From Clostridia bacterium (GTDB taxonomy: Bacteria; Bacillota; Clostridia; Oscillospirales; Acutalibacteraceae): DNA of 64,000 nucleotides. The position numbers and the translations under genes were made by a program. Below, piece after piece: positions 23,866 to 61,631 of this stretch. The number at the start of each line of letters is the position of its first letter. Within the stretch, counting starts at the first letter, position 1. The notes beneath the pieces were generated by a model. That model had not been told where the DNA came from, ran no database searches, and saw only the letters and a list, made by a program, of their open reading frames with translations. The stretch covers positions 124,001 through 188,000 of the forward strand of contig JAFTVI010000006.1 in the NCBI GenBank assembly GCA_017465825.1, read 5' to 3'.

Positions 23866-23909
23866 AATCATATCCTTTTCATATATTTCATACATAATTC
23901 TACAATTAT

Positions 23910-26900: not shown

Positions 26901-29346
26901 CATCGCCAAGCAGTTCATCAAGTTTAAGTGTATAAACAGTAATCTTTATACCGCCGTCACCAATTTGTATTCTGATTGGAATTTCAATTGCTTTTACAGA
27001 TGATAATAATGCGCCTGAAGTAAGATAGTATGAAAGGTTGGGAAGAAGCTCCATAACACACTTAATGGGGTCTTTAAGAAGCTTACCTGTTACCCAGTTA
27101 AGAAGAGGGTTGAGAAGACCGTCATTAAGGAACGTTGCAATAGTTGTAGCATTTCTGCCATTTGCAGACTGAAGAACCTTTGCATTTTCCTCAAACTTTT
27201 CACCGGTTATAAGTCCTTCTTTTGTAGTAATGCCAAGTGTTTCAAACAGCGGAACGATAACATCATTGTAAAGGAAGAATGTATCGCCTTCATTCAAAAG
27301 CAAATGAAGATTCATAAGAAGAACTGAAATAACTGTCATATCTGATTCAGCATCACCAAGAAGAACAGCAAGCAAGGGAGCAAGAGGAGCAAGAACAGCA
27401 TCAAGAGCTAAAAGGAACCTGTTTTTATCACCATTGATGTTCCATACCATTTGGCTCCAATCAACATCTCTCCAGTGATCCATATAATATTCGTTATACT
27501 GACAGCCGATTGCATAGTAATCATCTGTTTTATGACCTGCACCGTCATTGTTGATACCGCCTTTAGCTGCTTTGAGCATATCATGCATGCCTTTCATATC
27601 ACAAAAGCTGTATGCGGCATCAGTTGTAAATCCGTACTTATTCCAAACCCAAGCCATACCTGCAGGAGTAAGTGTTACATACATGTTGGAAGCAAGTACA
27701 CCGTAAATAAGAGCGTTCCAGCTCGTTGCGTTATCGGCAACAGCATCAACAATTGCCGCAAGGTCAATACCGTCAACAAGACCGGTTAATGTTTCCTCAA
27801 TAAATTCATCTGTGATAAGGTCATCAAGAAGATTACAAACCATGGGATAAACCAACTCAAGGAGCATATTAAGAATTTCATCACTAAATACCATGTTCTC
27901 AATGATCATATTGATAACTTCATGAGGAGTTGCATTATTGTTAGCCTCAAGGTCAACGCCGAACTCTGAAAGATCAAGGAACATTCCAAGAACCTTTGTA
28001 ATAGCCTTGTTCTCGAGAAGAGCGTCTATGTTGCTGATAAGAGTAGTGATATTTTCTGCAGTAACAGCAAACTCAATATTATTGCCGTATCTGTCAGTAT
28101 ACTTTTCGTATGTATGAGTAGGTGCATATTTGTTAACGTCATCATCGCCTACGATGGGTCTGAGCTGTGTGACAAGGTTAACATAGCTGTATGCACGCTG
28201 ACCGAAAACTGCAATCTTTGCTTCGTCTGAAATGCTTTCAAACAGTGCAAGTGATGAAGATATATCGGGATAATAGTTTTCGATAAGCATGGGATTTGTA
28301 GCGTAATCAAGCACACCGTCAGCATAATAAGTATTAAAGTATGTGGTAAGCTTTGCATCAAGCTTTTTGAGCTCAGATCTGATTGTGCTTACGGTTGATG
28401 TTTCATCCTTAGTATAACCGAGGTTATAATACTGTGCTTTAAGACCGGAATCATCAAACTGTCTGTCATTTGTCCATGTTACGGTAGTCTCATAAACAGT
28501 AAGGTTGGAGCTCTTAAGAGCTTCGCCCTCGGTAACGAGAACTGTATCAATATCAGTATATACATAGAAAACAAAATCGTGGAACCAGTTACCTGAATTA
28601 ACGCTTGTGCAGTTACCGCACATATACTTGACGATTGTTTCTATATCGCAGATTTCAGCAAGAGTGTTTGCTGCATACTCGCCTGCTTCAATCTTTGCCT
28701 GAAGCTCTGCTGCTTCTTCGTCAACATCATCAGTCATAACAACATTATAAACAATGTCGCCGTCATCATCAACTGTGTATGTCTTCTCCTCTGAACGGGC
28801 TACAACATTACCGAGAGCATCAGTATAATATGTATAACCGTCAAGGAAAAGATACTCGCCGTCATCACCTTTGAAATACAGCAATTCGTCGGAAATCTCT
28901 TCAATAAGCATAGGAACGGTATAAAGACCTACACCGAACTCATAGCTTATGAGATTGTCAACGATACCAAGCAAGATGTTTGTTGCATTTCTGATGGTGT
29001 AGTTACCGTCATCCTGTGCAGTAACCTTGTGGGTATATGATACGGAACGGATTGCCGAGCCGTCATCTGCCGCATACTCATATGTACCCGATTCGGTAGA
29101 TGTGGTATACTTTGAAAGGTCACCAAGGATAGTAAGTGACGGAATGCCCGCATCATCTTTGGTTACAACGTTATTGTTTGAACCAAGAGACGTGTCCTTA
29201 GTGTAGTTAAAGAAACTGTAAGCAAGAGCTCTGTATGCGTCTGACAACCCCGAATCCGCCGCATAAGACACAAGACCTATGGACATTACGGAAAAGAGCA
29301 TCAAAGCAGCCATAAATACACTCAAAGCTTTTTTCATAAGTTTCAT
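23995..29346 (-). CDS. Giant secreted protein of unknown function with internal duplication
   Basis: 1783 residues starting after AAGGAG (8-bp spacing). A classical signal peptide occupies about 1-29 (ending 'IGLVSYAA'). The protein is acidic and rich in Asp, Tyr, Leu and Asn, with alternating hydrophobic helices and Asp/Glu/Tyr-rich segments such as 'YTVDDDGDIVYNV'. Residues about 643-780 ('FLLALDAVLAP', 'VIVPLFETLGIT', 'CVMELLPNL') and 1351-1470 ('FLRALSAAFGP', 'WIPLMEALGAT', 'TVLNLIPNL') align in order, so the protein contains at least two homologous halves. No dockerin, LPXTG, SLH or catalytic motif is seen. It is monocistronic with its own promoter and terminator. Extracellular location is inferred from the signal peptide; role unknown. 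Confidence 0.85.
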   Translation of the reverse strand: MKLMKKALSVFMAALMLFSVMSIGLVSYAADSGLSDAYRALAYSFFNYTKDTSLGSNNNVVTKDDAGIPSLTILGDLSKYTTSTESGTYEYAADDGSAIRSVSYTHKVTAQDDGNYTIRNATNILLGIVDNLISYEFGVGLYTVPMLIEEISDELLYFKGDDGEYLFLDGYTYYTDALGNVVARSEEKTYTVDDDGDIVYNVVMTDDVDEEAAELQAKIEAGEYAANTLAEICDIETIVKYMCGNCTSVNSGNWFHDFVFYVYTDIDTVLVTEGEALKSSNLTVYETTVTWTNDRQFDDSGLKAQYYNLGYTKDETSTVSTIRSELKKLDAKLTTYFNTYYADGVLDYATNPMLIENYYPDISSSLALFESISDEAKIAVFGQRAYSYVNLVTQLRPIVGDDDVNKYAPTHTYEKYTDRYGNNIEFAVTAENITTLISNIDALLENKAITKVLGMFLDLSEFGVDLEANNNATPHEVINMIIENMVFSDEILNMLLELVYPMVCNLLDDLITDEFIEETLTGLVDGIDLAAIVDAVADNATSWNALIYGVLASNMYVTLTPAGMAWVWNKYGFTTDAAYSFCDMKGMHDMLKAAKGGINNDGAGHKTDDYYAIGCQYNEYYMDHWRDVDWSQMVWNINGDKNRFLLALDAVLAPLAPLLAVLLGDAESDMTVISVLLMNLHLLLNEGDTFFLYNDVIVPLFETLGITTKEGLITGEKFEENAKVLQSANGRNATTIATFLNDGLLNPLLNWVTGKLLKDPIKCVMELLPNLSYYLTSGALLSSVKAIEIPIRIQIGDGGIKITVYTLKLDELLGDAIAFLDSVQGVLELISFGVDTGVGVVGYYSDAEGSNYNVYTPEDPNYDPEVHKTPTSIAYANAYGEMNLYYTSGEYNIERNAMDADGNYTEWAIRDDVAYLNTETNKIVDNEGVRAVYTPLKEYYTYDVYSEYYDPDLEEIVGRTVTYKVATIDEVPAEYIDSCKKVESHVTLEEDIALPAIMDYKLQACGTLKEIYSCRHDNWTFTDREGGSVTWGDHKRNYIVMELTDDNGTYESYGLVFVFLLRYVLSALGYSQYADGDFVSEYTLLDAFGLDDEMLGDELISGLGVTLGDIVYHVCLNPDAIIASLFELLIGGEEGSLYTTDIINNAITVISGKDYSYAPTTMNTYADEILSAAEEHNDYKYGTAVLYNEYWSEEDGEYVVDNLDDIVENVLAMLKLDDMNSLSGLLEDMLAEYVFNNEMVTMIVSMVYTLLGSLGDIDLETLLYEVLGVDYSKQAMLDSIAYMFNKVDYTKIEMYQKLNAQISNKDYEYTEYSFSNATVDSETGEVIVGTSFDWGFNNPEVTAKYSNSEIFLRALSAAFGPFSILVEYLFMGEDINLLGIVHLPMYEIYHYAWIPLMEALGATDGLVSFRDYYGYVFANEDDKNGDGIEGGTAAFYYLLQPIVRLAENLIASPIETVLNLIPNLIFVLSIGGLNSIINNIAHFAYVLLDILEPIVDVYPILNSFLSNLDLGGIVLNLSLPLDVDLNQLVNELLDGLLGSALSFDIENDNIVLGQQTVEKEVDVPVVDANGNQLYDKATGLPLTTKEMQTVTEDVYAVGTLNITLPYLDLTTLCSGTIQDKTSVAGYHYIYLNSSGGADFITLVLRLVTDTLFYKENWENITNFLIGFCDLDDEDDNDALLMEIMMYIHTKAQDARMNDVLMGLILTIYKVLVPLADNLGTRFKNVDFSVMDMFEDMDNIGSYASALMNAGESKSETLSGFAKIIQMIKDFFANIAKFFQNLFS

Positions 29347-29482: not shown

Positions 29483-29827
29483 TATATTTTTGAAAAAATG
29501 TAAAAGAAAGATTATTTTTGAACATTTTAACAGAATACTTTATTTACTTTTATGCACTTTGATGAAAAAAAATATTTACTATTGATTTCTGAAAAAAAAT
29601 CAAGTATAATACATTTTGAATTTGCCGCTGTGTGCGTGCAGATAACAAGAATATGCCGGTGTGGTGGAATTGGCAGCATCGAATTCGACTGCCGCCGGTG
29701 GCTGATGCAAGGAGAATGAGATGGCGCAGCGGTCAAAATTCTGCGATGCGAACAGCGAGCAAAGAATTTTGGGCACCGCAAGAGTCACGCGACAGTTTTC
29801 CGTGCAGACAACAAATCAGAAAAATAT
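29483..29827. other. Intergenic stretch with partial tRNA duplication, no gene
   Basis: Reading frames here cross the tRNA copies and have no credible starts. Besides the 5' tRNA-Leu fragment at 29655, it holds a long inverted repeat, CAAAATTCT (about 29735) with AGAATTTTG (about 29764), and a second copy of the tRNA upstream sequence (GTGCAGA-CAACAA). Nothing else is recognised. Confidence 0.5.
29655..29676 (+). pseudogene. 5' fragment of tRNA-Leu
   Basis: The 22 bases from GCCGGTG to TTGGCAG match the first 22 bases of the intact tRNA-Leu at 29828, and the preceding AATAT and GTGCAGAnAACAA are also shared. Beyond base 22 the sequences diverge, so it cannot fold as a tRNA. Confidence 0.8.
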
Positions 29828-29914
<87 letters not shown>

Positions 29915-33350: not shown

Positions 33351-34067
33351 TTATTGATGGTTTTCTTTGTTTACCTCTTCAAGATATCCGGCTGTTATAA
33401 CACCGGATGGTAACGCTATGATAGCAATACCAAAAACAGATGAAATCATAGTGACAATTCTGCCAATGGTTGTTACAGGGTAAATATCTCCATAACCTAC
33501 TGTTGTTAGTGATATTGTTGCCCAATAAATCGCATCAAAAAAGGTTTCAAAAGATTCAGGCTCAATATTATAAATAACTAAAGCTGATATTAAGACATAC
33601 GCTACAGCCATTGTTGCGACAGCAGATAAGACCTTTTTCTGTTTTTTGAACACATTGGAAATTATATCAAAACTTTTGGAATATCTTAAAAACTTAAAAG
33701 CTCTTAAAACCTTTAATGTTCTTAATAACCTAAAGAGTTTTAACAATCTGAAACTGCTGTTTAATACTGTTAATGAGGGTAAAATTGAAATTAAATCAAT
33801 AACTGCCATCGGGGTAAGCGGATACACAAAAAATGAAACAACTGATTTATTAAGTTTATAATCAGCAGTTAATAATCTCAGAAAATAATCTAAGATAAAA
33901 ATGCTGACAGTAATATAATCAATCCATTGAAAAAGAGTATTTGTGTCTTTAAATGCAAGAGGGATTATACTTACAACAATAGTTGTCATCATCATAAAAT
34001 CATATATATTACTTAATTTATTATCATTATCAACAGGCTCAATAATAGAATACAATTTCTTTCTCAT
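33351..34067 (-). CDS. Voltage-gated-type potassium channel
   Basis: About 238 residues from the ATG at 34067; an ATG three codons upstream has no ribosome binding site. It is a six-helix channel. S1-S3 hydrophobic helices precede an S4-like helix with regularly spaced basic residues ('FRLLKLFRLLRTLKVLRAFKFLR', within 106-128), and the pore loop carries the K+ selectivity filter T189-V-G-Y-G-D194. S6 contains 'IIALPSGVITAGY'. It lacks an obvious RCK/TrkA-N domain. It would conduct K+ across the cytoplasmic membrane in response to voltage; no regulator is adjacent. Confidence 0.93.
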   Translation of the reverse strand: MRKKLYSIIEPVDNDNKLSNIYDFMMMTTIVVSIIPLAFKDTNTLFQWIDYITVSIFILDYFLRLLTADYKLNKSVVSFFVYPLTPMAVIDLISILPSLTVLNSSFRLLKLFRLLRTLKVLRAFKFLRYSKSFDIISNVFKKQKKVLSAVATMAVAYVLISALVIYNIEPESFETFFDAIYWATISLTTVGYGDIYPVTTIGRIVTMISSVFGIAIIALPSGVITAGYLEEVNKENHQ

Positions 34068-34141
34068 AATACACATCCATAGAATTATTTTCTAAATTAT
34101 ACCATAGATATTTGAACATTTCAACAAATCCTCTCTACAAG

Positions 34142-34262: not shown

Positions 34263-35549
34263 TTATAATGATTTTCTATATGGAATGGTGGATGCTATGA
34301 TTTCAACATCCATTAACCAATAAGTGTGCTTACAATAATGTCGTATTGCTTCAATTATATTTTTTTGATTTGGACACGGGCCAACTGTAATTTTCCTTAA
34401 TGGTAAATGCCCTTCACACCATACTGAAATTTTGGTATTTTCCTTTTCATTGAACGTTTGGACAGTTCTATGTACAACTTCAAAAATTTCTTTTTGATTA
34501 TCGCCTTGAGATATAATTACACTACTTTCTTTTTCGTGTAATACATATTCATAATTGACATCAGAAGAATCATAATTATATCTACAATTGTGATAACTAT
34601 TAACAGTTGCCCAACGACGTAATATACATCCTGTACAAAAGGGTTCTCCTGCATCTGCTTTAATCCCTTCACCCAAATGACAACCTTGTACAGAAACCGG
34701 ATAAGTTGTTTTTAATGCGGTTTCAATTTTTTCTGTCAATTCTTTTTCTTTATCTTTGTGAATACAAACACGAACAACACAAGTTGGAGCACTTTTTGGG
34801 GGAAGTGCAGATTTTACAACAATATATGGATATCGCAAGGTTTCGCTTTCAGAATCTCGATACTTAATACAATCGTCTAAAACACCATCAATATTTCTAA
34901 ATACTAGCCGATATTCATCCTCCTCAAAAAATCCACTATGCTTAATGTATGGGGCTTTTTTTTCAATTTCCTTGTGGTAAGTTTCATTTTTCCTCGCCAA
35001 ATCTATAGGATTTTTTAAAGCGAGTTCTTTGTGACAATAGTTGCAATACTCATCAACACTTTGATGAAGTTGTTTTGGAGCTATATAACGTACTGTGTCT
35101 AATCCTACATATTGAAGAATGTTATTTGATGAATCATCGCTTGAATCAGATTTGTTACTTATTATTGAAAAAGCTCGGGGCATACCAAAATCAAACCCCA
35201 TAGATACTCCACCTTCTGGAGCATAGCCCCTCCATTGACTCAATTTATCATCTTCTTTACAAAAACAAATTATATAATTTTCATTCAATCCAAATTTGTC
35301 ATTTTGATTATCTGTCAAACTTTTGTCTTCAACTAAGGTTGAAATTACGTCCATTCCGAATTGTTGTTCTTCTTCATCGTTACTAAATCTAGCATTTGTT
35401 GCCCAAAATGAATCACTTTTAAGTATTTGCCAAAAGCTTTTAAACGATCGGTATTGATAAACTAACGGAAGAACTTCCGGTTGTCTTGCAGTTGATTCAA
35501 AATGTGGGAGTTGTTCTTGTGCTTGCACAATTTTTTGGTATTCTTTCAT
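34263..35549 (-). CDS. DUF2971 domain protein, third gene of the giant-protein operon
   Basis: 428 residues. The DUF2971 core is recognisable: 'VYQYRSFKSFWQILKSDSFWATNARFSND' type start (30-58, with YRSF and FSND), 'NYIICFCKEDDKLSQWRGYA' (91-110) and 'GGVSMGFDFG' (113-122), corresponding to the family's 'CFS......W..YA....G...GF' pattern. A middle segment has Cys/His pairs ('CNYCHKEL', 'FCTGCILRRW') that may bind metal. The last 100 residues form an extra domain. DUF2971 has no established activity to my knowledge. It starts 3 bp after the receiver-like gene, so the operon is tightly coupled. It could be the effector. Confidence 0.8.
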   Translation of the reverse strand: MKEYQKIVQAQEQLPHFESTARQPEVLPLVYQYRSFKSFWQILKSDSFWATNARFSNDEEEQQFGMDVISTLVEDKSLTDNQNDKFGLNENYIICFCKEDDKLSQWRGYAPEGGVSMGFDFGMPRAFSIISNKSDSSDDSSNNILQYVGLDTVRYIAPKQLHQSVDEYCNYCHKELALKNPIDLARKNETYHKEIEKKAPYIKHSGFFEEDEYRLVFRNIDGVLDDCIKYRDSESETLRYPYIVVKSALPPKSAPTCVVRVCIHKDKEKELTEKIETALKTTYPVSVQGCHLGEGIKADAGEPFCTGCILRRWATVNSYHNCRYNYDSSDVNYEYVLHEKESSVIISQGDNQKEIFEVVHRTVQTFNEKENTKISVWCEGHLPLRKITVGPCPNQKNIIEAIRHYCKHTYWLMDVEIIASTIPYRKSL

Positions 35550-35552
35550 ATA

Positions 35553-36203
35553 TCATTCTCCAATTTTTAAACATTTATAAATCTCATCCTTAAATGGTTT
35601 ATAAATTACATTACCATCAATTACAAATCTCTCGTATGGAGTTTTCGGTGGAACCACTCCATGTGACCATTTATTAGGAAAAGAGAAATCACCTTCATCG
35701 TAGTTGGTATAGGGTATACAATTTCCAACATATTTTTGATACAGAACCTGGGATAATATTTTATCGCCATTTTCTGTTATTCGATTTTGGTCTACTTCTT
35801 TTAATAGCACTAAGTCTAGCATTATTACAAAACTAGAATCTTTGCGAATAGTATCGATTTTTGCACAAATCTTATCACTACAAACATCTATTTCATCTGG
35901 ATATTTATTTTTCTCTAAAGAAACAAATTCGTATTCATATTTTAATTTAGGTATAAAACCTTGACCTTGAGTTGCCAAATCTTGTTGCCTGGTTTCAAGC
36001 AATCTTTTTATTCTATCAAAACTATCGGTATCACGTTTTTGATTATCCCATAGAGTATGAAGTACACATATTTTTGTATCAGAATCTTGAGGAGAGTTTG
36101 TTAAACCCATTTTGCTTGATACAAAAATTATCGACTGAATACTTAAAAGAATATCTTGAACTTGACTAAGATCATCTTCTACTAATATTATTGTTTTTTT
36201 CAT
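35553..36203 (-). CDS. Receiver-like (response-regulator-fold) protein with a long insertion
   Basis: 216 residues. The start 'KKTIILVEDDLSQVQDILLSI' matches the first strand, acidic pair (E9 D10 D11) and helix of a receiver domain. The next acidic strand 'FVIMLDLVLL' with Asp130 fits the phosphoacceptor strand, and 'ENGDKILSQVLYQKY' fits helix 3. About 70 extra residues lie between the two compared with standard receivers. No DNA-binding output domain follows. Its stop and start abut the giant protein (1 bp apart) and DUF2971 (3 bp), so it probably relays a signal between them. A degenerate, non-phosphorylated receiver is possible. Confidence 0.65.
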   Translation of the reverse strand: MKKTIILVEDDLSQVQDILLSIQSIIFVSSKMGLTNSPQDSDTKICVLHTLWDNQKRDTDSFDRIKRLLETRQQDLATQGQGFIPKLKYEYEFVSLEKNKYPDEIDVCSDKICAKIDTIRKDSSFVIMLDLVLLKEVDQNRITENGDKILSQVLYQKYVGNCIPYTNYDEGDFSFPNKWSHGVVPPKTPYERFVIDGNVIYKPFKDEIYKCLKIGE

Positions 36204-39200
36204 TTAAATATCCTCCTTTGATTTTAAAATGGGTAATTTAATTATATATGTGTTATTATGTGATCCCTTTATTACTTTAGGACTATTATTTCCAGGGTAA
36301 ATATAATTGCGCCAAAGGCCTTCGATATACCAACATATAGCAGCTTGAGACATTCCTGGACCTTTCTTTTTAAATCTTTGCTGAAAATAAATGTCATTAC
36401 TAATTACGAGATAATCAAAAGAAACACCATCGAAAGAATTTCCTGGCTCACGATTAATGTATATTTTACACTTATTGGATGCAATTGAGGAATTAAGCTT
36501 ATTAAAAGCTTCTCCTCCCCATTTGGATTCATTCCAAATTTTGCCAGCTTTTAAACCACTGATAAAACAATCCAACAGAATTATGGACAAATATTCAGCC
36601 AAATAAGCATAATTGCAATCATTATTATTATCATAAAAACTAATACACTTAAAGTCTTCAAAATATTTTTCAAGATTATTTAGCCTCTGTTCAATTGATG
36701 CATTGTTATCTGTTCCATAATCCGGGTTATCGTTAACAACAAAAGTAATAGTTTTCATCATTTGCTCAAGATAATTTTTTCTTATATATCCTATTTTAAG
36801 AGGTGTAAAAAAAACTGATTGTAGATCCAGAACAGGTCTCATCATAACACTTCTGGCATCTCTCAAATAGTATTTTTCCATATTTGTTGTTTCACGATTA
36901 GTGGTAGATTCATCAACACTTCTTGCCATAGCTCGAAATAGTCTTGCAATTCTAGAATTAACATAGGTTCGTAACAAAAACCATTCTCTAACTTCAGAAA
37001 GTTGTCCACCAAGAGGAATACTTACATCATAAGAAGAAATCTCGTACAATCGTTCTCGATTTCCTTTTGGTGTAATTGCATATTCCCAATTTTTACTAAC
37101 TAATTCTTTATTAAAGCCGTCAGAGGTGCATAGCATTAATAACTTTTGCTGACACTCAACAAAATCATTTTCTGCATGATCACCCATTTTATCTGTGGAT
37201 AAAATTTGTGCAAGATGTTGCTGTTGAGATAATATAGAAATAGCATTGTTATTAAAATCATTCTCTAACCATTCGATTATCTTTTTACGAAACATTAATA
37301 TCATTCTTGTTAAATATAATGCTTTCGATCTACTTGTTTCGCAAGGAATATATATATATATTGGTTCGATTTTCTGATGCCCTGTTTCTACTATTCCCGA
37401 TGATTTTAAACTATCATAATTATTATCAAGTTTAATCATAATATTGAAATTTTCGGCATTAGTGTTTGAGGTTAACAATTGGAAACCATTTCTTTCTAAA
37501 AAGGGTTCGATAGAACCATTCCCAATTATTTCTTCCCATTGGGATTCAAATCTTTTTTTCTGTTCAGACTTTTCACGTTTTGCTTCGTTATCGAAATGTT
37601 TAGGAAATAGTGTAAAGTAGTTTGGTAAACTTAAATATTCGCTATTTGCAGCTGAACTTAGAGAGTTTTTTCCGACTATAATTATATTATCATAGTTGCT
37701 CATTTCATGATAAGCAATTTTTTGTAATTTATCTCCAAGTTTATCATAACATTTTATATCATGGCTTTTATCTTTCAACTGGTCTAATAATGCCCCCAAT
37801 TCACATAATAATGCGTAGTATATATCTATGTTTTGGTGGCTGTAACTTATGAATGAAAATGCATTTTTCATATGGTACTCGTCTAATAAATTTTTAGCCA
37901 TGTTATACAAGCTTGTCGGCGATAAATCTGGTATCAAAACCTTTCTTTTGTTAAATTCATTAACGGCTTGATAAAGAGGTCTATTGTTTTCAATTAACAG
38001 AACTTCAATAAAATTAATGAATTTTGATTTGATTGCTTGGGGAACTGCATTTGACAAATTAACAGTTCCAGATGTTTCTGACAGTACACTATGTTGAGGA
38101 TACTCTTCACCATATTGCAATAAATATTCTAACCATACACTTTTACTTTCATCACTACTGCTCTGTGTCATTCGTAAAATAGTTCGTGTGTAATGTTCGA
38201 AAAACTCTTCTATCTCTGTATCACAATCCGGAGTATAAGCATCATTTAATCGCATTGTCAAACCTATTATTGTATTTTTTCGCAAAACATAGTTGCTTTT
38301 AATATCTGCCAAACCTTTAAGTATATTATTACGTATAAATACCATATGAGCACGATTATCTTTAGCAACAATGTTCATCAAACTATTTGCAAAATCAACA
38401 ATCCATTCAATATTATCATTTTTTAATAAATAACTTTTATTTTCGGCTTTTTTTAAGCGAAGAACAAAGTTTTCAACAGTGCAACCATTTATCAAATACT
38501 CTGAAAGAATCAAATACAAATCCATAACTACACAGCGCATTCTATAGTCATATGAAAAAAATGGACGAACAAGAATTTTTAATGCGGCTGACAACCATAA
38601 ATGATGATTGTTTTCATTAATATCATCATATATGTGTGTTCTATATACATTGGCGGTTCGAGCAGTTCTTATTTCTTCAAGAAAATTTCTTACAGCCGAA
38701 AAGTAAGTTGATATTTCAGCACCTTGAATAGGTCTAATATAATGAGCCGCTCTATGTGTGCACATCATTCGTTTGTAGCCTTCTTCTTGCATTTCAGTAT
38801 TACCTTGAATTGAATCATCAATTGCGTCGAAGGAAATACATGCTCGATCAAAAATTTTCTTTTCCCAATAGGCACTTATAGATTTTGTAGCAGCTTTTTT
38901 ATAATAATCTTTTGCTTCTTGTTGTAATTTGCAGGGCACACAACTATCCCCAAATGTACGCATAGCAGAAATATTAACCTCTACATAAGAATGGAAATTT
39001 TTATTCGCGTTTTGCACATACATATGTTTAGAATCATTAGACAATCTACTAATCAGCAAAAAAATCTTACTAAACTGAAAACGATATGCTTCTGCATCTT
39101 GATTTATCTCCTTACAATAATCATTCATACATGAAGAAATAAGTGATACCATTCTGCTGAAACTATTACCACTATTTATTGCAACATCAACATAATGGAA

Positions 39201-42200
39201 ATTAATATTAACAGATGGGTTATCAACATCAAGCAACCTCTTAAATAAACCGCTATACTCAGCTTTTAAGTTGCTTCTAAATTCTTTTTCTGTGTTTATT
39301 ATAATGCATTCCGCACAACCTTTAAAATAATACTCATAAACATATTGACCAAACTCAACATTGTTGGTTTGTTGTGGTATAACTAAAATATTAATACATT
39401 TAGGAGAAAAAATTGTGCTATCTTCATCTTCGGTTTTTTTACGTAAATTTTCTAACCATTCTTTAACATATGCACTTTCTTGCTGAAAAAATTCTCTGGT
39501 CTTAATATAATACTGGTAGTGGCTGCTTCCCTTTGAGGTGTGTCCGTATATTATGTTGTTTTTTAGTTTCGCTACCTTTATATCATTTTGTTCTTCCTGT
39601 TCAGAGTCTACTGATGTAGGTACACATAAAACATTTTTTTTGCAATAAAATTGTTGCGTGGGAACAGTGGACGTCGGATCTGTTTCTACTAGCGGAAGTT
39701 CTAAAATAGGATCATCCGGAAAACATTTCTTACAACCTAGAGAATTACTCCACTTACTAGTAACACTTACCAAATAATTTATGTTCCCCAAAACAATATC
39801 ACTTTTAATTGTTTTGTTTAAACTATCAGTATGTGACCAAAAATTCTCTTCTTCTTTTGTGGGTTGATTTATATTTTCATATTTATTTCTCACCCAAAAA
39901 GCTGTAAAATTTTCAACTACTTCAAATTTTTGATTTGTAGCTCTAGTTAATTCTGCACGCATCTTATTAAATGTCGTTAATGATGAACTAATGGGTACAA
40001 TCATCACTAAAGCACTATCACTTGATTTCCATATGCTATGGGGATTTCTTTGCCATTCTTCCTTACTGTAATACATTTGAATTTGTGGCTGTTCGCTTTC
40101 AAGTTTTAAATCATTTTGGTAAATAACAAATGCTATATCCGGGAAAATTTCTTCTTTAATGAGTTTATATTCTTTCAATATCTGTATTATTGCCCATACG
40201 ATTGCACGAGAATATGAAGCATAACCATAAAATATAATTTTCTTCTTTTTGATTAAATCTTTACGTCTTTTAAGGAAAGACTGTAAAAAAAGAAAAGCGG
40301 TATAGTAAGCATAATTTGGATTTTCAAAAAACAAAGCCATTTCGTAAAATGTATCTAGATGAACTTTATTTCCCAATCTCATATGAGTTTCCTCTATTTT
40401 AAATCCCTGATTTTTATTGTTTAAAATAGAAGTGTTGGCCTGTTTTAATAGTTCTTCTTCAAAAAGAGTGTGTCCGTTGCTATTTTTCAAAAAAAGAAAA
40501 TACGGAAAAACACGAGGAAAAACTTGGGTATTTATTTCTTTATTTAATAAATCATGAAGAGTTGCTGCACAATAAATAAGGCCTTTTCCGTTCATATCCT
40601 TTGGATAAAAATAAACACATGAATTATTTAACTTGAAAAAATCTTGACTATAAACAGCTTGTAGAGTACCTGAAAATATTCTACTAAACAGCGGATTGGG
40701 ATTGAGAAATAATATACTATAGTAAGAATTTTCTTTTACATTAACAAAAAAATTGCTACTGAGAAATCCTTTGCAAAAAGGTTCTCCTATTTCTTGATTA
40801 TCATTTAAATATTGACACAGTATTTCTAAATCGCAAACATAGACTTCTTTTTTATTAGTTTCGCTGAAATCAATTTGTGAATTAAACCAATTTTTCCAGC
40901 TCTGCGCTGATGTATCTTTATTTTCTTGTGAAAACGGAAGACACAATTTCTTAATATGCTCATTAGATATGATAAATTCTTTTACCTCGCAATTAAAAGT
41001 TAATGCTTGTGCTAATTCTCGATAAGTTGTAGCATAAACAAATTTATTAAAATCGAATGCCCATGTTTTATCTGTAACGGTAGGTTCAGTTGGAGCTAAA
41101 GGGTTAATAATAACAGAAAACTGCGTTCCGGGAATAAAAGAACCTTCAAATAGCTTAGCCGTTTTATTGATGTCAAAAGTATGTTTACTGAAATATATAT
41201 CTTTTAAACTTTGATTGTTAAACTCTGGAGAACTACGAACAACAACTTCTCCGCCAAGCTTTTTTACACTATTCAAGAAAGAGTGTAATCCATGACACAT
41301 TTCTGGTCTTTTTTCTCTTGCATTTTGCCAAATAGTTTTAATATCTGTATCTCCATAGTCTCCAAAAAGATGCGATAAATATATCTTTGAGGATAACTCT
41401 TTGATAGCAGTATCAGCTTTATTGCTATTGAGGAAATGGCGAACAATACCATCATTTTGATTTGTATCAGAAATCAATATTTCTAAACATGTTTTGTCAT
41501 TGTTTATTTCATAACCTGGGTAGTGTGACGTTAAATATTGAAGATTACTTTGTTGCCTAAATGTAAAAACACCAGTACCGCGTTCAGAGTGATTTACAAT
41601 ATTTTCAAGAATCTGACTAACAGCTAACGATAACATTTGAATTCTACCTAGCAACTCCTTAATACTATTAGAATCTATATTGCTTCTTATTGTGCCTTTA
41701 ATTAACGAACCTAATAATAATATATCTAATGGAGATATGCCCTGAACCTCTTCAACCACATTGCACAATAGCGTTAATAATTCTTTTTTGCTTGTTGATG
41801 TTTTGTACTTTTTACCATTTAAATTTCTAAACAGCATTTTGAACCCAATATTAAACAATAAAAAACTAACATCTTCACTGTTACAATTCTTAGGATAAAG
41901 AGCCGTATATAATTTGTCATAATTTTGATTCTGATAATTATTTGATATAAGCCACGTTTTGTTTAACATTTGACACAATTTCCCATCCACTTCCAAAAGT
42001 GGTAAAAATGTACTTTGCGTTCCATCAGTATTTTGCGACAAAGATTGTAATGAATCAAAATTTTTATTATAACATGCATAAAAACAATGATATTTTTGTT
42101 GAACAAAGCGCAAAAAATGAGAAACTCTAAAATAATCCTTGGTTTCCCATGTTATAGAATTACCTTTCATAATTCTTACAGCAATTTTATTTTGAATATT

Positions 42201-42608
42201 CGGAATTGATTGTAAAAGCAGAATTAAATGTTGTAATTCAATAATATCATTTTCGTCTTCATTTAAAACAAGTCGAAAATAGTAAAAGAACCGATTTGCT
42301 TTTTCGTCTTTTTCTAATCCACTTAAAAGTTTATTTTTAGAAATAATTTTTTTAATTTTATTCGGATTCTTATTATTTAAGACTTCTTCGTGTGTTAATA
42401 ATGTTTTAATATTATTAATTCCATTGTTGTTAACACGAGAAATATCGAATGATAAAAAATCATCTGTTTTATCATCATAACGACAATCAGCAAACTGTGC
42501 TATATTTTCTAACCAAATAATAGTTTGTATACATCTTGAAAAATTATGTTGTGTTGGGGTAAACTCAAAGGTACAAAGCCAATTATTTACAGGTGTTGTA
42601 ATTTCCAT
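36204..42608 (-). CDS. Giant 2134-residue GHKL-ATPase / phosphoribosyltransferase-like protein
   Basis: First gene of the operon, starting after AAGGAGAAAAAT. Residues 320-505 form a GHKL ATPase (histidine-kinase-type): N box 'ILENIVNHSERG' (333-344), G1 'ISDTNQNDG' (379-387), G2 'CHGLHSFLNSVKKLGGEV' (438-455) and final strand 'GTQFSVIINPL'. Two stretches resemble PRTase cores: 787-890 ('IIFYGYASYSRAIVWAI', 'VMIVPISSSLTTFNKM') and 1071-1160 ('FHYVDVAINSGNSFSRMV', like the PRPP loop). CxxC-type cysteines lie between (959-995). A divergent second GHKL-like domain closes the protein (about 2000-2134: 'EYLSIILLDCF', 'DYLVISND', 'KKGPGMSQAAICWY', 'TYIIKLPIL'). No clear phospho-histidine helix. Cytoplasmic. 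I know no named family with this architecture. Confidence 0.75.
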   Translation of the reverse strand: MEITTPVNNWLCTFEFTPTQHNFSRCIQTIIWLENIAQFADCRYDDKTDDFLSFDISRVNNNGINNIKTLLTHEEVLNNKNPNKIKKIISKNKLLSGLEKDEKANRFFYYFRLVLNEDENDIIELQHLILLLQSIPNIQNKIAVRIMKGNSITWETKDYFRVSHFLRFVQQKYHCFYACYNKNFDSLQSLSQNTDGTQSTFLPLLEVDGKLCQMLNKTWLISNNYQNQNYDKLYTALYPKNCNSEDVSFLLFNIGFKMLFRNLNGKKYKTSTSKKELLTLLCNVVEEVQGISPLDILLLGSLIKGTIRSNIDSNSIKELLGRIQMLSLAVSQILENIVNHSERGTGVFTFRQQSNLQYLTSHYPGYEINNDKTCLEILISDTNQNDGIVRHFLNSNKADTAIKELSSKIYLSHLFGDYGDTDIKTIWQNAREKRPEMCHGLHSFLNSVKKLGGEVVVRSSPEFNNQSLKDIYFSKHTFDINKTAKLFEGSFIPGTQFSVIINPLAPTEPTVTDKTWAFDFNKFVYATTYRELAQALTFNCEVKEFIISNEHIKKLCLPFSQENKDTSAQSWKNWFNSQIDFSETNKKEVYVCDLEILCQYLNDNQEIGEPFCKGFLSSNFFVNVKENSYYSILFLNPNPLFSRIFSGTLQAVYSQDFFKLNNSCVYFYPKDMNGKGLIYCAATLHDLLNKEINTQVFPRVFPYFLFLKNSNGHTLFEEELLKQANTSILNNKNQGFKIEETHMRLGNKVHLDTFYEMALFFENPNYAYYTAFLFLQSFLKRRKDLIKKKKIIFYGYASYSRAIVWAIIQILKEYKLIKEEIFPDIAFVIYQNDLKLESEQPQIQMYYSKEEWQRNPHSIWKSSDSALVMIVPISSSLTTFNKMRAELTRATNQKFEVVENFTAFWVRNKYENINQPTKEEENFWSHTDSLNKTIKSDIVLGNINYLVSVTSKWSNSLGCKKCFPDDPILELPLVETDPTSTVPTQQFYCKKNVLCVPTSVDSEQEEQNDIKVAKLKNNIIYGHTSKGSSHYQYYIKTREFFQQESAYVKEWLENLRKKTEDEDSTIFSPKCINILVIPQQTNNVEFGQYVYEYYFKGCAECIIINTEKEFRSNLKAEYSGLFKRLLDVDNPSVNINFHYVDVAINSGNSFSRMVSLISSCMNDYCKEINQDAEAYRFQFSKIFLLISRLSNDSKHMYVQNANKNFHSYVEVNISAMRTFGDSCVPCKLQQEAKDYYKKAATKSISAYWEKKIFDRACISFDAIDDSIQGNTEMQEEGYKRMMCTHRAAHYIRPIQGAEISTYFSAVRNFLEEIRTARTANVYRTHIYDDINENNHHLWLSAALKILVRPFFSYDYRMRCVVMDLYLILSEYLINGCTVENFVLRLKKAENKSYLLKNDNIEWIVDFANSLMNIVAKDNRAHMVFIRNNILKGLADIKSNYVLRKNTIIGLTMRLNDAYTPDCDTEIEEFFEHYTRTILRMTQSSSDESKSVWLEYLLQYGEEYPQHSVLSETSGTVNLSNAVPQAIKSKFINFIEVLLIENNRPLYQAVNEFNKRKVLIPDLSPTSLYNMAKNLLDEYHMKNAFSFISYSHQNIDIYYALLCELGALLDQLKDKSHDIKCYDKLGDKLQKIAYHEMSNYDNIIIVGKNSLSSAANSEYLSLPNYFTLFPKHFDNEAKREKSEQKKRFESQWEEIIGNGSIEPFLERNGFQLLTSNTNAENFNIMIKLDNNYDSLKSSGIVETGHQKIEPIYIYIPCETSRSKALYLTRMILMFRKKIIEWLENDFNNNAISILSQQQHLAQILSTDKMGDHAENDFVECQQKLLMLCTSDGFNKELVSKNWEYAITPKGNRERLYEISSYDVSIPLGGQLSEVREWFLLRTYVNSRIARLFRAMARSVDESTTNRETTNMEKYYLRDARSVMMRPVLDLQSVFFTPLKIGYIRKNYLEQMMKTITFVVNDNPDYGTDNNASIEQRLNNLEKYFEDFKCISFYDNNNDCNYAYLAEYLSIILLDCFISGLKAGKIWNESKWGGEAFNKLNSSIASNKCKIYINREPGNSFDGVSFDYLVISNDIYFQQRFKKKGPGMSQAAICWYIEGLWRNYIYPGNNSPKVIKGSHNNTYIIKLPILKSKEDI

Positions 42609-42871: not shown

Positions 42872-42900
42872 TAGACAAACTCTCCTTTAATTTGTACAAT
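42872..42900 (+). promoter_or_regulatory. Promoter of tnpV
   Basis: TAGACA (42872-42877) and TACAAT (42895-42900), 17-bp spacer, 30 bp before the ATG. Confidence 0.6.
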
Positions 42901-42930
42901 GATGTTACAAAATTAAAGGAGGCTATTTTT

Positions 42931-43296
42931 ATGTCAAACAAAAACTCTATCAGTTACCGTCGAGTTGGAGATTATAATATACCTAACCTCTCACTTCCGC
43001 CCAAAGAAGCAAATATTACTCTCGGCAAATGGGGAATGTTACATAAGGACTATCTTCTCAAGCAAAAGAAAGTGGTATTCACAACCCTGCTCGCAGAAGG
43101 TAAACTGTGGCAGTATCTTGCAGATATTGATACCCAAGCTCAACAGATGTGCAACACAATTGTTGAGCAGATAAAAAAGGCTGAAGACGTAACCGAGCAA
43201 CTTAAAGAAGAAAATCAGCTGGAGTGGGTGTGCCGTATGCAGAATATTGAAGATAGGGCGAGAGAAATAGTGGTCGAAGAGTTAATTAACATATAA
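42931..43296 (+). CDS. tnpV: TnpV family transposon-encoded protein
   Basis: 121 residues from the ATG at 42931, preceded by AAAGGAGG; an ATG 13 codons upstream lacks a site. The sequence 'LGKWGMLHKDYLLKQKKVVFTTLLAEGKLWQYLADIDTQAQ' in part, with 'QMKAEGVTEQLK'-like continuation ('IKKAEDVTEQLKEENQLEWVCRMQNIE'), is the hallmark of TnpV proteins of Clostridia transposons. TnpV is a small accessory protein of unknown role, usually carried inside integrative elements. It is followed by its own terminator and marks this region as mobile. Confidence 0.85.
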   Translation: MSNKNSISYRRVGDYNIPNLSLPPKEANITLGKWGMLHKDYLLKQKKVVFTTLLAEGKLWQYLADIDTQAQQMCNTIVEQIKKAEDVTEQLKEENQLEWVCRMQNIEDRAREIVVEELINI

Positions 43297-43385: not shown

Positions 43386-45068
43386 TCATTTGGAACATAG
43401 TTCTATTAAGATAGATGAATTATCTTCATAATCTTCTGTGTTCAACAAATGATATTTATCATTATCAAGACGTATAACCGTATCAAAAGAAATTCCATAT
43501 GTCTGCTCATTTTCGTACCCAATTCCGGAAACGATTAATTGATTGTCTTGGGGTGTATTTTCAACAATATATTTATAAAGTTGTCCCTTCTTCTCCAAAT
43601 CTGTTTCTGCGTTATTAGGACTATCGAATACCACTGGGAAATCAATGGCTGCTGGATTAAATTCTTTCCTCAATTTCAAAAGATTAATATACCAAATAAT
43701 GGTTGCGATTGGCTTATTACTGCCACCACCTTTGAACGAGTTAGTTATTTTCTCAAAAGCCTTTTCTTTGATTTCCTCAAGTTTGAATTGTTGTTTTGCT
43801 GCCATCATTAACTCATAGTATCGAGTATTAATCCTGTTTTTGGTTTCAGTATAACTACGTTCTTCTTTTTTTAAGGCTTTCTCTTGCTGTGTGAGTCCAT
43901 CTATTTTTTCGCATATAATATGCAACTCTTGAATTATTTCATCTCTTATTTCAACAAATCCTTTGTGAGCTAATACATCATCAATCTCACCATGCTTCTC
44001 AGCAATGGAATCTTCATATTTTTTTAATTCTTCCAGCCATTTTCGGTATTCCTTTTCCTGCATTTCAATCTTTCTTTCAATCTCACTGATAGCTATTTGC
44101 ATATTGTTACTTAGTAAGATAACATCTTCCGCCGTATTGTACTTAGATATGCGCAGAGCCACAGTATCACCAAGAGAAGAACAACAGAAAGGACATATAT
44201 GGTTATTAAGAGATTTGATTTGTTTTTCATTGTCGCGATCAAGCATTTTCAATGCATCTAAAGAGGAAAATATTTCAGCTCGCTCATTTCTTAAATTTAT
44301 GAGATTTGTTCTTGTTTTACTCAATGAGTTAGCAATGCGGATATATTGCTCTTTTGTTCGTTCCACATCACGCTTTAATAACTCCAAGCTTTGAGTATAT
44401 GAAACATCACGTATACTAGAAACAACCTTTTCATACATTCCCTCAGAAATTTCTTTCTTTTTCTCAGTATTCTTTATTTCTTCGTGAACCCGTTCAAGTT
44501 GGCGTTCTATTTCGTAATATTTCTCATCGAATGCTCCAAAATGATAATAAAGCACATTTTCTTTAAAATCAGGATATTGTCCTAAATTATCAAAAGAGGC
44601 AAATTGTGTACCTAAAATTCTGTCTTGATCCAAGAAATATAGCAAATAGCTATATGCCGGAGGTGTTATTTCTAATTTTTCTTCCCCTCTTTTTGGAAGC
44701 TGTACAGCAAAATTGAAAATTGATTTTAGTTTTTCGCCCAACTCATTTCTATGTATAGTTTTAAAAATTACATTTTTATTAGAATCAAACAGCTTAAAAA
44801 GACTACTGCAGCGATACATATAGTATTCGCACCCGTCTATTTCAAAGTTTAAAATATATGTCTTATCCTTGTCGTCCCAAATAGGTTCAAAAAAACAATC
44901 AGCTCCCATTGTGTGATATAAACACTTTGTTATCAAAGATTTTCCTCGTTTAGTGCCATCAACAGAACTTGAAGTGATGATATTTGTTCCTGCTGAAAAA
45001 CTTACAACCTTAGCTTTTTTCTCAACACTACAAAAAATATATAGTGTTTTAAATACAAGTTTACTCAT
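43386..45068 (-). CDS. Rad50/SMC-like ABC ATPase (DUF2326-like), defence component
   Basis: About 560 residues from the ATG at 45068 (AAGGTGG upstream; the GTG at 45077 overlaps that site). An N-terminal half-ATPase has a P-loop-like 'VDGTKRGKSLITK' (39-51). Long coiled coils (about 185-285 and 320-430) flank a zinc-hook-like 'HICPFCCSS' (293-301). The C-terminal half has a signature-like 'FKGGGSNKPIATIIWYI' and the Walker B strand 'IDFPVVFDSPN'. This is the plan of DUF2326 and LmuB-type ATPases, which sense DNA structures and license an effector. It overlaps the upstream nuclease gene by 8 bp, so the two form one system. Confidence 0.85.
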   Translation of the reverse strand: MSKLVFKTLYIFCSVEKKAKVVSFSAGTNIITSSSVDGTKRGKSLITKCLYHTMGADCFFEPIWDDKDKTYILNFEIDGCEYYMYRCSSLFKLFDSNKNVIFKTIHRNELGEKLKSIFNFAVQLPKRGEEKLEITPPAYSYLLYFLDQDRILGTQFASFDNLGQYPDFKENVLYYHFGAFDEKYYEIERQLERVHEEIKNTEKKKEISEGMYEKVVSSIRDVSYTQSLELLKRDVERTKEQYIRIANSLSKTRTNLINLRNERAEIFSSLDALKMLDRDNEKQIKSLNNHICPFCCSSLGDTVALRISKYNTAEDVILLSNNMQIAISEIERKIEMQEKEYRKWLEELKKYEDSIAEKHGEIDDVLAHKGFVEIRDEIIQELHIICEKIDGLTQQEKALKKEERSYTETKNRINTRYYELMMAAKQQFKLEEIKEKAFEKITNSFKGGGSNKPIATIIWYINLLKLRKEFNPAAIDFPVVFDSPNNAETDLEKKGQLYKYIVENTPQDNQLIVSGIGYENEQTYGISFDTVIRLDNDKYHLLNTEDYEDNSSILIELCSK

Positions 45069-46107
45069 ATTTTCCACCTTCCCATTTCAATAAAACTATC
45101 AACATAAATACTTTTCTATCACTTTCGGAAAACTCTAAGGAGAATTTTGAATCAAATTCCTCATACAACATATTTAGTGTATCTAATTGATTATCGGGTA
45201 ACTCATTCTCATTCTCTGTTAAATAACTTGCGATAAGTTTTTCATTTGTTTTCAACTCTACAGACATTGAATAGTGCTGAGTTATAGAAACCAATGATGC
45301 CTTATACTTTCGAATTGTACGAGGTGCTGTGATATTAGCACTTATAAATTTCTCTGCCTCAGATATAGAATTATCTGTCAAAGATGAGTGTTTACAAAGC
45401 ATACTATGTAGTTCTTGTTTCGTTATTCCCTTGTTTTGCACTAATTCATTATAACTATTAGACTTCATCTCATAACAAGCTTTTGTTTCAACCGTATCTT
45501 TGATTAAGCGATATAATGCGTTGGGTTTCTCAGGTTCGCATCCTATGATTTGTTCAAAACTACCAATAATTTTACCGCGTAAGTCATTGTCGGGATTCAG
45601 CAAATTCATAGAGGTGTAAATAAATCCTACATTATTTAAATCAATCGTTGGACCTAATTCGCTGTTAAGTGCTTCGCGAATTTTCTTTTGTGTTTTTTCG
45701 TCTAAAGAAGCAAAATCAAGTGTTTCGTATTCTGAATATACTTTATTTCCTATTTTAAGAAAAGCATTTGAAACAATAGCAATTTTAATTGGTACCGAAG
45801 GATTAAATGCATTTTTCAGAAGGTAAAGTCTACCCATTATTGATTTTTCAGTTTTATCCTGTTTTGATAACTTTGTAAAAGTATATGGTGATTGAACTCT
45901 ATGTGTTTTAACTTGATAAAATTCAAGGGAATTATTCAAATGAACTTCGATATCACACTTATAGTCAAAAACAACGCAAAAATCATCTTTTTCAAACAAA
46001 TCAAACATTTTGCTTGCGCCCCAAAGCATTTCTAGGCGAAAACGATTTTTGCTAGATGAGCCGGATGTATCAACTGGTATTTTTTCATATTCATCAATTA
46101 TACTCAT
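45061..46107 (-). CDS. DUF4297 (Cap4-like) nuclease domain protein, defence effector
   Basis: 348 residues starting after AAGGAGGATAAGATTAG. The N-terminal part has the PD-(D/E)xK pattern of DUF4297/Cap4 nucleases: 'RFRLEMLWGASKMFDLF' helix, then 'CVVFDYKCDIEVHL' (Asp52, Glu54) and 'LEFYQVKTH' (Gln65-Val-Lys67). The C-terminal 150 residues are helical and unlike the SAVED domain of CBASS Cap4. It is followed by, and overlaps, the Rad50-like ATPase. Nuclease plus SMC-like ATPase is the core of Lamassu-Cap4 and of the wider ABC-3C group. A small middle component (LmuC-like) was not found. Confidence 0.85.
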   Translation of the reverse strand: MSIIDEYEKIPVDTSGSSSKNRFRLEMLWGASKMFDLFEKDDFCVVFDYKCDIEVHLNNSLEFYQVKTHRVQSPYTFTKLSKQDKTEKSIMGRLYLLKNAFNPSVPIKIAIVSNAFLKIGNKVYSEYETLDFASLDEKTQKKIREALNSELGPTIDLNNVGFIYTSMNLLNPDNDLRGKIIGSFEQIIGCEPEKPNALYRLIKDTVETKACYEMKSNSYNELVQNKGITKQELHSMLCKHSSLTDNSISEAEKFISANITAPRTIRKYKASLVSITQHYSMSVELKTNEKLIASYLTENENELPDNQLDTLNMLYEEFDSKFSLEFSESDRKVFMLIVLLKWEGGKYE

Positions 46108-51599: not shown

Positions 51600-52469
51600 T
51601 TATTTCTTTACAACAGGAACCCATATTTCACTACGGTAATCGGGACTACCCATATTACCCTCGGTATAAGCCTCAATATCCATTTCATAGGTAGGCTCAT
51701 AACCTGATGTTGGGAAGAATTCTGAAACAATTTTGTGCCACATATCCTGCATAGCTTTAGGCATAGCACCTTTGCATTCAAATACTGCCCACGTTCTTGC
51801 AGGAATTGTGCTTTTTCTGAAGCCTTCGGGAATTTCAATGTTTTCATCACATTTTGCTGCGATTGAATAATCAAAAGTCGTTGCGTTTTCGGGAAGATTT
51901 CCATAGCACACACCCAATATGAAGGTTTTGTCTGTAGTTAATTCAGTTAATTTCTTAACAGTACCGTCTTTGTGAGAACGTGTCCAGAAGTCAGGAATAC
52001 TCTTGGCATTTTCTGAATTTTCAACAGTGTGTGCTTCAACCTTTTCAATAATACCAAAAGCCTCTTTTTCTACAATTTTGTAGTCCATTATACTGCCTCC
52101 GCTTAATGTAATTTTTACAGTAAGGCGAGAAAAAGATTTGAGTTTTGAACCGTCCTTCTTTGCTTCGGATGGAGTTGTGCCGTGAAATTTTGCAAATGCT
52201 CTTGTGAAGCTTTCAGGGCTTTCATAGCCGTATTTCAATGCAACATCAATTACTTTTTTATCAGTAGCGCACAACTCACTGCCGGCAAGTGTAAGCCGTC
52301 TGTTTCTGATGTAATCACCTAAAGTGATTCCGCACAAAATACTGAAAATTCTTTGAAAATAAAACTCCGAACAAGCCGCTTCTTTTGCAACAAGCTCCAT
52401 ATCAATTTCATCTGTAAGATGATTCTCAATATAATTTATTGCATTCTGTATGCCTGTAACCCAATCCAT
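51600..52469 (-). CDS. AraC family regulator with GyrI-like effector-binding domain
   Basis: 289 residues. The N-terminal AraC DNA-binding domain has both helix-turn-helices: 'DMELVAKEAACSEFYFQRIFSIL' and 'DVALKYGYESPESFTRAFAKFHGTTPSEAKK', the latter the AraC signature. The C-terminal half (from about 125, 'DYKIVEKEAFGIIEKVEAH' to 'SEIWVPVVKK') is a GyrI/BmrR-like ligand domain that usually binds drugs or hydrophobic cations. This is the Rob/SoxS-like arrangement (AraC-GyrI) tied to multidrug responses. No efflux gene lies next to it. Confidence 0.93.
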   Translation of the reverse strand: MDWVTGIQNAINYIENHLTDEIDMELVAKEAACSEFYFQRIFSILCGITLGDYIRNRRLTLAGSELCATDKKVIDVALKYGYESPESFTRAFAKFHGTTPSEAKKDGSKLKSFSRLTVKITLSGGSIMDYKIVEKEAFGIIEKVEAHTVENSENAKSIPDFWTRSHKDGTVKKLTELTTDKTFILGVCYGNLPENATTFDYSIAAKCDENIEIPEGFRKSTIPARTWAVFECKGAMPKAMQDMWHKIVSEFFPTSGYEPTYEMDIEAYTEGNMGSPDYRSEIWVPVVKK

Positions 52470-59884: not shown

Positions 59885-60229
59885 ATGAAAGAAAACAAAA
59901 AGACAAGACTTGTAAAAGCATATTTTACCGAAGAAGATTACGAAAGACTTAATTATCTTTGCAGTATTATGAAAATTTCTAAATCGAAAATGATTCGGTT
60001 TCTGCTTTATTACAAGAACATTAAAGAAGCTCCGCCTGTTGATTACACAGTTTTAATCAGAGAAATGCGGGCAGTCGGTAACAATTTAAATCAGCTTGCA
60101 AGAGCTGCAAACGCAAAAGGTTGGATAAATGAAAAGGAATTGCGTGCCGCCATTCTTTCTCTTCGTGAACTCGAAAAGAAAATATCGGCTGAGTTTCATT
60201 TAAGTAAGGAGGCTGAATATTGGCAGTAA
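59885..60229 (+). CDS. mobC: MobC-like relaxosome accessory protein
   Basis: About 114 residues from the ATG at 59885, preceded by AGAGGTG; the frame extends upstream through the oriT inverted repeats, which is not credible coding. An N-terminal ribbon-helix-helix-like segment 'RLVKAYFTEEDYERLNYLCSIMKISKSKMIRFLL' and the C-terminal MobC motif 'LIREMRAVGNNLNQLARAANAKG' are clear. MobC opens DNA at oriT so the relaxase can nick it. It overlaps the relaxase start by 10 bp. Confidence 0.9.
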   Translation: MKENKKTRLVKAYFTEEDYERLNYLCSIMKISKSKMIRFLLYYKNIKEAPPVDYTVLIREMRAVGNNLNQLARAANAKGWINEKELRAAILSLRELEKKISAEFHLSKEAEYWQ

Positions 60230-61611: not shown

Positions 61612-61631
61612 ATCAGGAGGAATATTTTATT

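Follow-up and report, generated by a model that had tools for sequence, protein, structure and literature searches.

A conserved, unnamed three-gene unit in a Clostridia bacterium joins a GHKL- and phosphoribosyltransferase-fold giant to receiver-like and DUF2971 proteins

Prokaryotic immune systems based on histidine kinases have reportedly been predicted by Burroughs and Aravind (2020, J Bacteriol), and their likeness to the locus described here lies in kinase-based immune signalling in general. The VapKSC and CapK-CapS systems couple a GHKL kinase and its STAS substrate to a toxin or immune operon; in the three-gene VapKSC operon, the kinase phosphorylates a small STAS protein and the toxin is freed (PMC13373217, in the excerpts available). 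According to the same excerpts, the STAS-GHKL kinase phosphorylates a STAS serine, and activation by single-stranded DNA was shown for CapK and proposed for VapK. The figure legends of the DefensePredictor study mention a phosphoribosyltransferase (PRTase) domain for validated E. coli systems and, for predicted ones, HATPase and REC domains (PMC13092281). Here, we describe a conserved, unnamed three-gene unit in a 64,000-nucleotide stretch of a Clostridia bacterium genome (assembly GCA_017465825.1, contig JAFTVI010000006.1, positions 124,001 to 188,000), hereafter the window. We tentatively propose that the unit acts as an abortive-infection switch: a giant protein would sense a nucleotide, phosphorylate a receiver-like protein and so unleash a DUF2971 effector. 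Its three open reading frames (ORFs) all lie on the minus strand.

36204..42608, minus strand: giant protein, 2134 amino acids (aa), with an N-terminal region, GHKL ATPase, two tandem PRTase folds, helical region, GAF/PHY-like domain, DHp-like helices and degenerate CA domain
35553..36203, minus strand: gene 2, receiver-like protein, 216 aa, with acidic pair E9-D10, D130 and T166
34263..35549, minus strand: DUF2971 protein, 428 aa, with a C-terminal extension; predicted effector

The original prediction, made from the letters of the window, had the genes and their strand right and gave gaps of 1 and 3 bp, which measure 0 and 3 bp. Among the proteins listed at E <= 1e-3, there are 78 relatives of the giant, its own sequence included; most are full length and none is functionally named. 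A pattern scan of one genome per species across 84,980 species returned five giant loci, and the giant is present in 3/98, 3/391, 2/398 and 4/394 genomes of four samples that overlap and include its own genome. It was not found in plasmids or phages by tblastn, nor in viral contigs by a pattern scan. In total, we compared 10 distinct loci: the window, L005, L006, L007, L008, L009, L015 (genome G031), L016 (G072), L017 (G464) and L022 (G1066).

The order of the genes is constant. In all eight window-type loci whose sequence continues past the giant (window, L005-L009, L015 and L016), the next gene is receiver-like, as called in five of them from its place, size (178-267 aa) and motifs. The third gene encodes DUF2971 in 7/7 loci with further DNA, the contig of L007 ending before it; the L016 copy passes the Pfam cut-off, and phmmer assigned five others, all with E values of at most 1.7e-27. 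The triplet thus recurs with the same composition. The L017 contig ends inside the giant, where two frames are also seen, and in L016 the giant is divided between two proteins, one of 758 aa with GHKL and one of 1308 aa running from PRTase to CA, with both partner genes after them. Across loci, gene junctions range from -53 to +5 bp, with starts chosen mechanically. Similarity matrices over seven loci correlate between giant and DUF2971 (Spearman 0.88, exact Mantel 19/5040), between giant and receiver-like protein (0.57, 44/5040) and between receiver-like protein and DUF2971 (0.41, 169/5040), as would be expected if the genes of the triplet travel together.

The giant itself belongs to no family in Pfam, nor in NCBIfam or PADLOC at E <= 1, and its domains were delimited by predicted structure and profile comparison as follows.

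41106..41672, minus strand: GHKL ATPase domain, residues ~313-501
39735..40499, minus strand: PRTase fold 1, residues ~704-958, with IVPISSSLTTF at the PRPP-loop position and without the usual acidic pair
38928..39599, minus strand: PRTase fold 2, residues ~1004-1227, from predicted structure
39156..39200, minus strand: loop of PRTase 2 for phosphoribosyl pyrophosphate (PRPP), FHYVDVAINSGNSFS, second Asp lost
37254..37811, minus strand: GAF/PHY-like domain, residues ~1600-1785, from predicted structure, less sure
36909..37250, minus strand: DHp-like helices, residues ~1787-1900, from predicted structure, less sure
37176..37178, minus strand: codon of His1811, candidate phosphoacceptor
36207..36686, minus strand: C-terminal CA (GHKL-like) domain, residues ~1975-2134, ATP boxes degenerate

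A full set of GHKL boxes near the N-terminus, as originally noted, is borne out: the boxes are conserved, and hhalign matches the domain to HATPase_c of the same genome at 90.7 % (E 1e-6), as for the ATP-binding domain of a sensor histidine kinase. The PRTase-like motifs noticed mid-protein correspond to two tandem folds of the type I PRTase kind in confident predicted structures, and a fold search with this region returned a PurR-like match. PRTase rows fill the fold-search results, so the lack of GHKL rows among the matches listed is no evidence against GHKL. The GAF/PHY-like domain and the histidine-kinase-like DHp-CA tail are predicted with less certainty than the PRTase folds; the tail includes the degenerate GHKL-like C-terminus of the original prediction. 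Profiles of the giant and of its core gave no credible match to the sequences of solved structures. By hhalign, scores were weak for PRTase 2 (10 %) and the C-terminal CA (1-4 %), and GAF, DHp and PRTase 1 were not recovered, though the predicted folds suggest these domains.

Conservation in the giant was counted in 53-row alignments, in which the window, L007, L009 and L015 stand beside 49 of the 77 remaining relatives. PRTase 1 carries VPISSxLTTF-type loops without an acidic pair in these rows. In PRTase 2, both Asp residues of the loop VDDxIxTGxT are kept in 10/53 rows and also in L006, L008, L016 and L017; the loop reads VDVAINSG in the window, VDTSIITG in L007 and VNTAITSG in L022. The window giant therefore does not keep both of the acidic residues that mark the PRPP loop of type I phosphoribosyltransferases and is not filed as a PRTase enzyme. 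Because the loops are degenerate, we read the PRTase pair of the window branch as sensors of PRPP or another nucleotide. It had been suggested that the giant senses or makes a nucleotide-type signal; sensing fits better, and making is less likely here.

These loops also bear on a different account, in which the PRTase domains make a nucleotide messenger that is bound by the GAF-like domain or the receiver-like protein, without any phosphate relay, and that activates DUF2971 or, in the relatives described below, a metallophosphoesterase. Such synthesis would suit the VDDxIxTGxT loop of many deep relatives and a GAF-like domain placed before the output, and receiver-related domains acting outside kinase systems have been published (cRec; PMC9503650, in the excerpts available). 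We nevertheless consider it unlikely, given that the second acidic residue is missing from the window branch, that the loop reads VNTAITSG in L022, that PRTase 1 has no such pair in the aligned rows, and that an invariant histidine and a kinase-like tail would be left without a role.

That histidine, His1811, is kept in 52/52 aligned rows (P0078, which is without the module, was left out) and, in another alignment that takes in the split L016 copy, in 13/13 rows. In three rows of the histidine kinase HK853, chain residues 244-246 align with model residues 794-798, which places HK853 His260 at model residues 810-813, a placement based on where the aligned ranges begin and end and not on a residue-by-residue reading; His1811 is model residue 812. 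His260, which we take to be the phosphoacceptor of HK853, is mutated in one of the aligned structure entries. The earlier statement that the giant has no DHp histidine thus appears to be contradicted. In the CA domain behind His1811, Ser replaces the N-box Asn in 46/52 rows, and L016 keeps FIRNAVEHS. Since these boxes are degenerate, the ATP for phosphorylation would come from the N-terminal GHKL domain. With a conserved candidate phosphoacceptor in a GAF-DHp-CA-like tail, relay of a phosphate to the receiver-like protein becomes a more concrete proposal.

The same residues weigh on a toxin-antitoxin-like reading, in which a DUF2971 toxin is held by the receiver-like protein and the giant and is released by their loss instead of by phosphate. 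The tight operon, the effector in last place and the AT-rich island (G+C 30-33 % at 32-50 kb of the window, relative to 40 % at 28-32 kb and 35-40 % at 50-64 kb) would all be compatible with it. The conserved boxes of the ATPase and the invariant His1811, however, predict an enzymatic switch, no antitoxin of this length (2134 residues) with such features is known to us, and we regard this reading as very unlikely.

Gene 2 supplies the candidate partner of His1811. It has 15 relatives at E <= 1e-3, its own protein included, and its 15-row alignment combines nine of them with the copies of L006-L009, L015 and L016. Each row shows the motif set of a receiver, namely an acidic pair (D/E at position 9 and D/N at position 10), an Asp at 130 in a hydrophobic strand as candidate phosphoacceptor, and T/S at 166; the window protein has an insert before the phosphoacceptor strand.

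35814..35816, minus strand: codon of D130, 15/15 aligned rows

We therefore call gene 2 receiver-like at the level of motifs. The receiver-like start and phosphoacceptor strand of the original prediction stand in this sense, with no significant profile match to receivers. No family in Pfam, NCBIfam or PADLOC contains gene 2, and its profile gave no credible match to the sequences of solved structures.

The third gene passes the Pfam threshold for DUF2971 (PF11185; 35.1 bits against a cut-off of 22, E 3.6e-8), in keeping with its first description as DUF2971 with a C-terminal extension. Beyond PF11185, it matches only an unnamed PHROG, with nothing in NCBIfam or PADLOC at E <= 1 and no credible profile match to the sequences of solved structures. 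DUF2971 is nearly missing from the searched literature (1 paper in 5.39 million). An ADP-ribosyltransferase fold was also considered for it. The effector role of DUF2971 is a prediction, backed indirectly by relatives that carry a metallophosphoesterase as their output part.

These form a sister branch. In L022, the gene after a 1609-aa relative with the GHKL and PRTase core encodes 752 aa with a calcineurin-like metallophosphoesterase domain (E 2e-14), and neither a DUF2971 match nor an ORF starting like a receiver was seen at this locus. Proteins P0078 and P0114 fuse core and phosphoesterase in a single chain, and 19 more proteins of the 1609-aa type, full-length or nearly so, are among the matches listed. 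With P0078 removed, hhalign between the window family and the C-terminal part of this branch gives 26 % (E 7e-4) both for residues 1420-1600 and for a 33-column match in the GAF linker, relative to 0.06 % for residues 1240-1420 and 0.1-1.5 % for DHp and CA. Values of 94-96 % were discarded as circular, P0078 having been in both alignments. As the match covers residues 1420-1600 and the linker but not DHp and CA, the sensor side is likely common to both branches, and kinase tail, receiver and DUF2971 appear to have been exchanged as a block. For messenger synthesis, L022 is a further difficulty, since the sole phosphoesterase locus with context has neither the tail nor a receiver-like gene.

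The genomic company of the triplet points to defence. Upstream of the giant in the window lie two Lamassu genes, which stand outside the triplet.

43386..45077, minus strand: Lamassu LmuB, PADLOC E 1.7e-191
45061..46107, minus strand: Lamassu LmuA with a Cap4 nuclease domain, PADLOC E 1.1e-118, Pfam E 5.8e-38

Strong known defence genes occur within 10 kb in at least 5/10 loci, a lower bound; few flanking ORFs were scanned per locus, and none for L007. Besides the window, these are L005 with AbiD (5e-68), L017 with NsnA/NsnB (9e-111 and 5e-93), L016 with a BREX set BrxA-BrxB-BrxC-PglX, and L006 with a SIR2 protein resembling ThsA/Dsr2 (3e-26), all by PADLOC; L016 also has an AbiH gene just above the Pfam cut-off. 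At L015 there is an FRG protein from a candidate family (1.7e-10), L008 has weak matches only, and L009 and L022 have no weighty defence match in the one or two flanking ORFs scanned. Matches at E <= 1e-10 were obtained for 14/20 flanking ORFs chosen by eye (2/2, 6/8 and 6/10), relative to 0/10 random ORFs drawn from 52 in five 20-kb stretches of genomes G031, G072, G1066, G464 and G000. The defence-gene neighbourhood of the original prediction is thereby upheld. Separately, a PDC-S15 match lies near the triplet in L015 (15508-17019, with an FRG domain) and in L005 (15404-16540).

A cytosolic, two-component-like regulator of nucleotide stress, with no anti-phage role and present in islands through mobility alone, would account for the five loci in which the few ORFs scanned held no strong known defence gene, for the PurR-like fold match, and for a patchy spread that suits any mobile gene. 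This alternative is set against BREX, Lamassu, AbiD, SIR2 and Nsn neighbours, relatives with a different output enzyme, and a triplet in which Pfam, NCBIfam and PADLOC recognised no DNA-binding or transcription domain. We judge it distinctly unlikely.

Returning to the abortive-infection switch, we infer all of its signalling steps from what is observed, that is, the genes, their conservation, the PRTase folds and the conserved residues. The PRTase pair and the GAF-like domain would bind PRPP or another nucleotide whose level shifts during infection. ATP on the N-terminal GHKL domain would then feed phosphorylation of His1811 in the DHp-like helices, inside a dimer, and the phosphate would move to Asp130 of the receiver-like protein, altering its hold on DUF2971. 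DUF2971 would harm the cell or the phage, and the infected cell would be stopped.

Several results weigh against this model. Sequence comparison recognises gene 2 in only 3/8 loci (window, L005 and L007), and the receiver Lys is not conserved in its rows. Aligned by hhalign to 11 receivers of the same genome, gene 2 reached only 0.35-1.7 %; PRTase references outscored receivers in 4/5 hhalign variants, and Pfam Response_reg was found for 1/15 members, at E 0.13. In addition, the CA domain adjoining DHp lacks the intact ATP boxes of a sensor histidine kinase, and the missing receiver of the phosphoesterase branch rests on one locus, L022.

Two further genes lie next to the triplet.

42892-43296, plus strand: small gene for a TnpV transposon protein, PF14198 E 1.4e-40, between giant and Lamassu, upstream of the triplet
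33351-34076, minus strand: ion channel gene, with a counterpart in L015 at 17016-17765 (minus strand)

The ion channel was rejected as a fourth component: it occurs in 17/60 relatives, of which two have the giant (its own genome and G031) and 15 do not. Elsewhere in the window, 22 bases of the 5' end of tRNA-Leu(caa) are copied at 29655-29676, ~170 bases before the intact tRNA gene (29828-29914), and may represent an integration scar. A 1002-aa protein (56673-59681, minus strand) matches the RNA-dependent RNA polymerase family RdRP (PF05183, E 1.2e-15) and adjoins a relaxase and a ParB_N protein (60220-62480, plus strand); a polymerase of this type on an apparent bacterial mobile element seems unusual. 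An APH-family phosphotransferase (52946-53908, plus strand; PF01636, E 6.8e-12) adjoins an AraC/GyrI-like regulator (51600-52469). Finally, a 1783-aa protein (23995-29346, minus strand) has no Pfam match at E <= 0.001, and the protein encoded downstream of it (21406-23895) has dockerin, SH3 and Y_Y_Y domains.

Against PADLOC-DB 2.0.0, none of the three proteins of the triplet returned a family at E <= 1, which, with the absence of NCBIfam matches, agrees with the original view that no named system has this composition. No description of the triplet was found in the searched literature, including the available excerpts of PMC7824862, PMC7159879 and PMC12839542; a comparison with the histidine-kinase-based systems of Burroughs and Aravind is outstanding. 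It is conceivable, if doubtful, that the triplet represents a new class of bacterial immune system, in which a cytosolic tandem-PRTase and GAF-like nucleotide receptor is wired to a His-to-Asp phosphorelay that fires a toxin, and in which the output cartridge (kinase tail, receiver and DUF2971, or metallophosphoesterase) has been swapped in evolution. Categorical novelty would rest on the composition, on the lack of Pfam families for giant and gene 2, and on the finding that neither PADLOC nor NCBIfam contains the triplet, with the gene make-up of the DefensePredictor systems uncompared. If the model is true, two-component phosphorelays, known mainly for gene regulation, also arm toxins directly in phage defence, PRTase folds act as infection-stress receptors, and DUF2971 gains its first functional setting. 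It yields a precise prediction for point mutants, namely the relay from H1811 to D130.

Relative to described proteins, the triplet combines familiar parts in a different arrangement. With sensor kinases of the GAF/PHY-DHp-CA type, such as phytochromes, HK853 and SrrB, the giant shares the predicted order of GAF-like domain, DHp-like helices with a candidate His, and CA, as well as a partner with receiver motifs. It differs in degenerate CA boxes, in a second GHKL domain with conserved boxes ~1300 residues upstream, in a PRTase core and in the lack of a recognised transcription output. PurR, HP1257, APRT and OPRT have the PRTase fold in common with the giant, whereas the giant holds a tandem pair within a signalling protein, with a degenerate PRPP loop in the window branch. 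VcSduA, a Shedu protein with an N-terminal GHKL domain, is a phage defence protein whose proposed control part is likewise a GHKL ATPase; there the ATPase is fused directly to a DUF4263 nuclease, while the triplet has no DUF4263, has PRTase folds and keeps its partners as separate genes (PMC12137116, in the excerpts available). The cRec domains of RNA repair and cyclic ADP-ribose (cADPr) processing are also receiver-related domains in conflict settings, but are stated never to occur with a histidine kinase, whereas gene 2 adjoins a kinase-like tail (PMC9503650). The closest known logic is that of VapKSC, in which a GHKL kinase, a small phosphosite protein and an effector share one operon, as in the triplet; in place of the STAS serine parts of VapKSC and CapK-CapS, the triplet has a receiver-like aspartate, a PRTase and GAF-like giant, and DUF2971 (PMC13373217).

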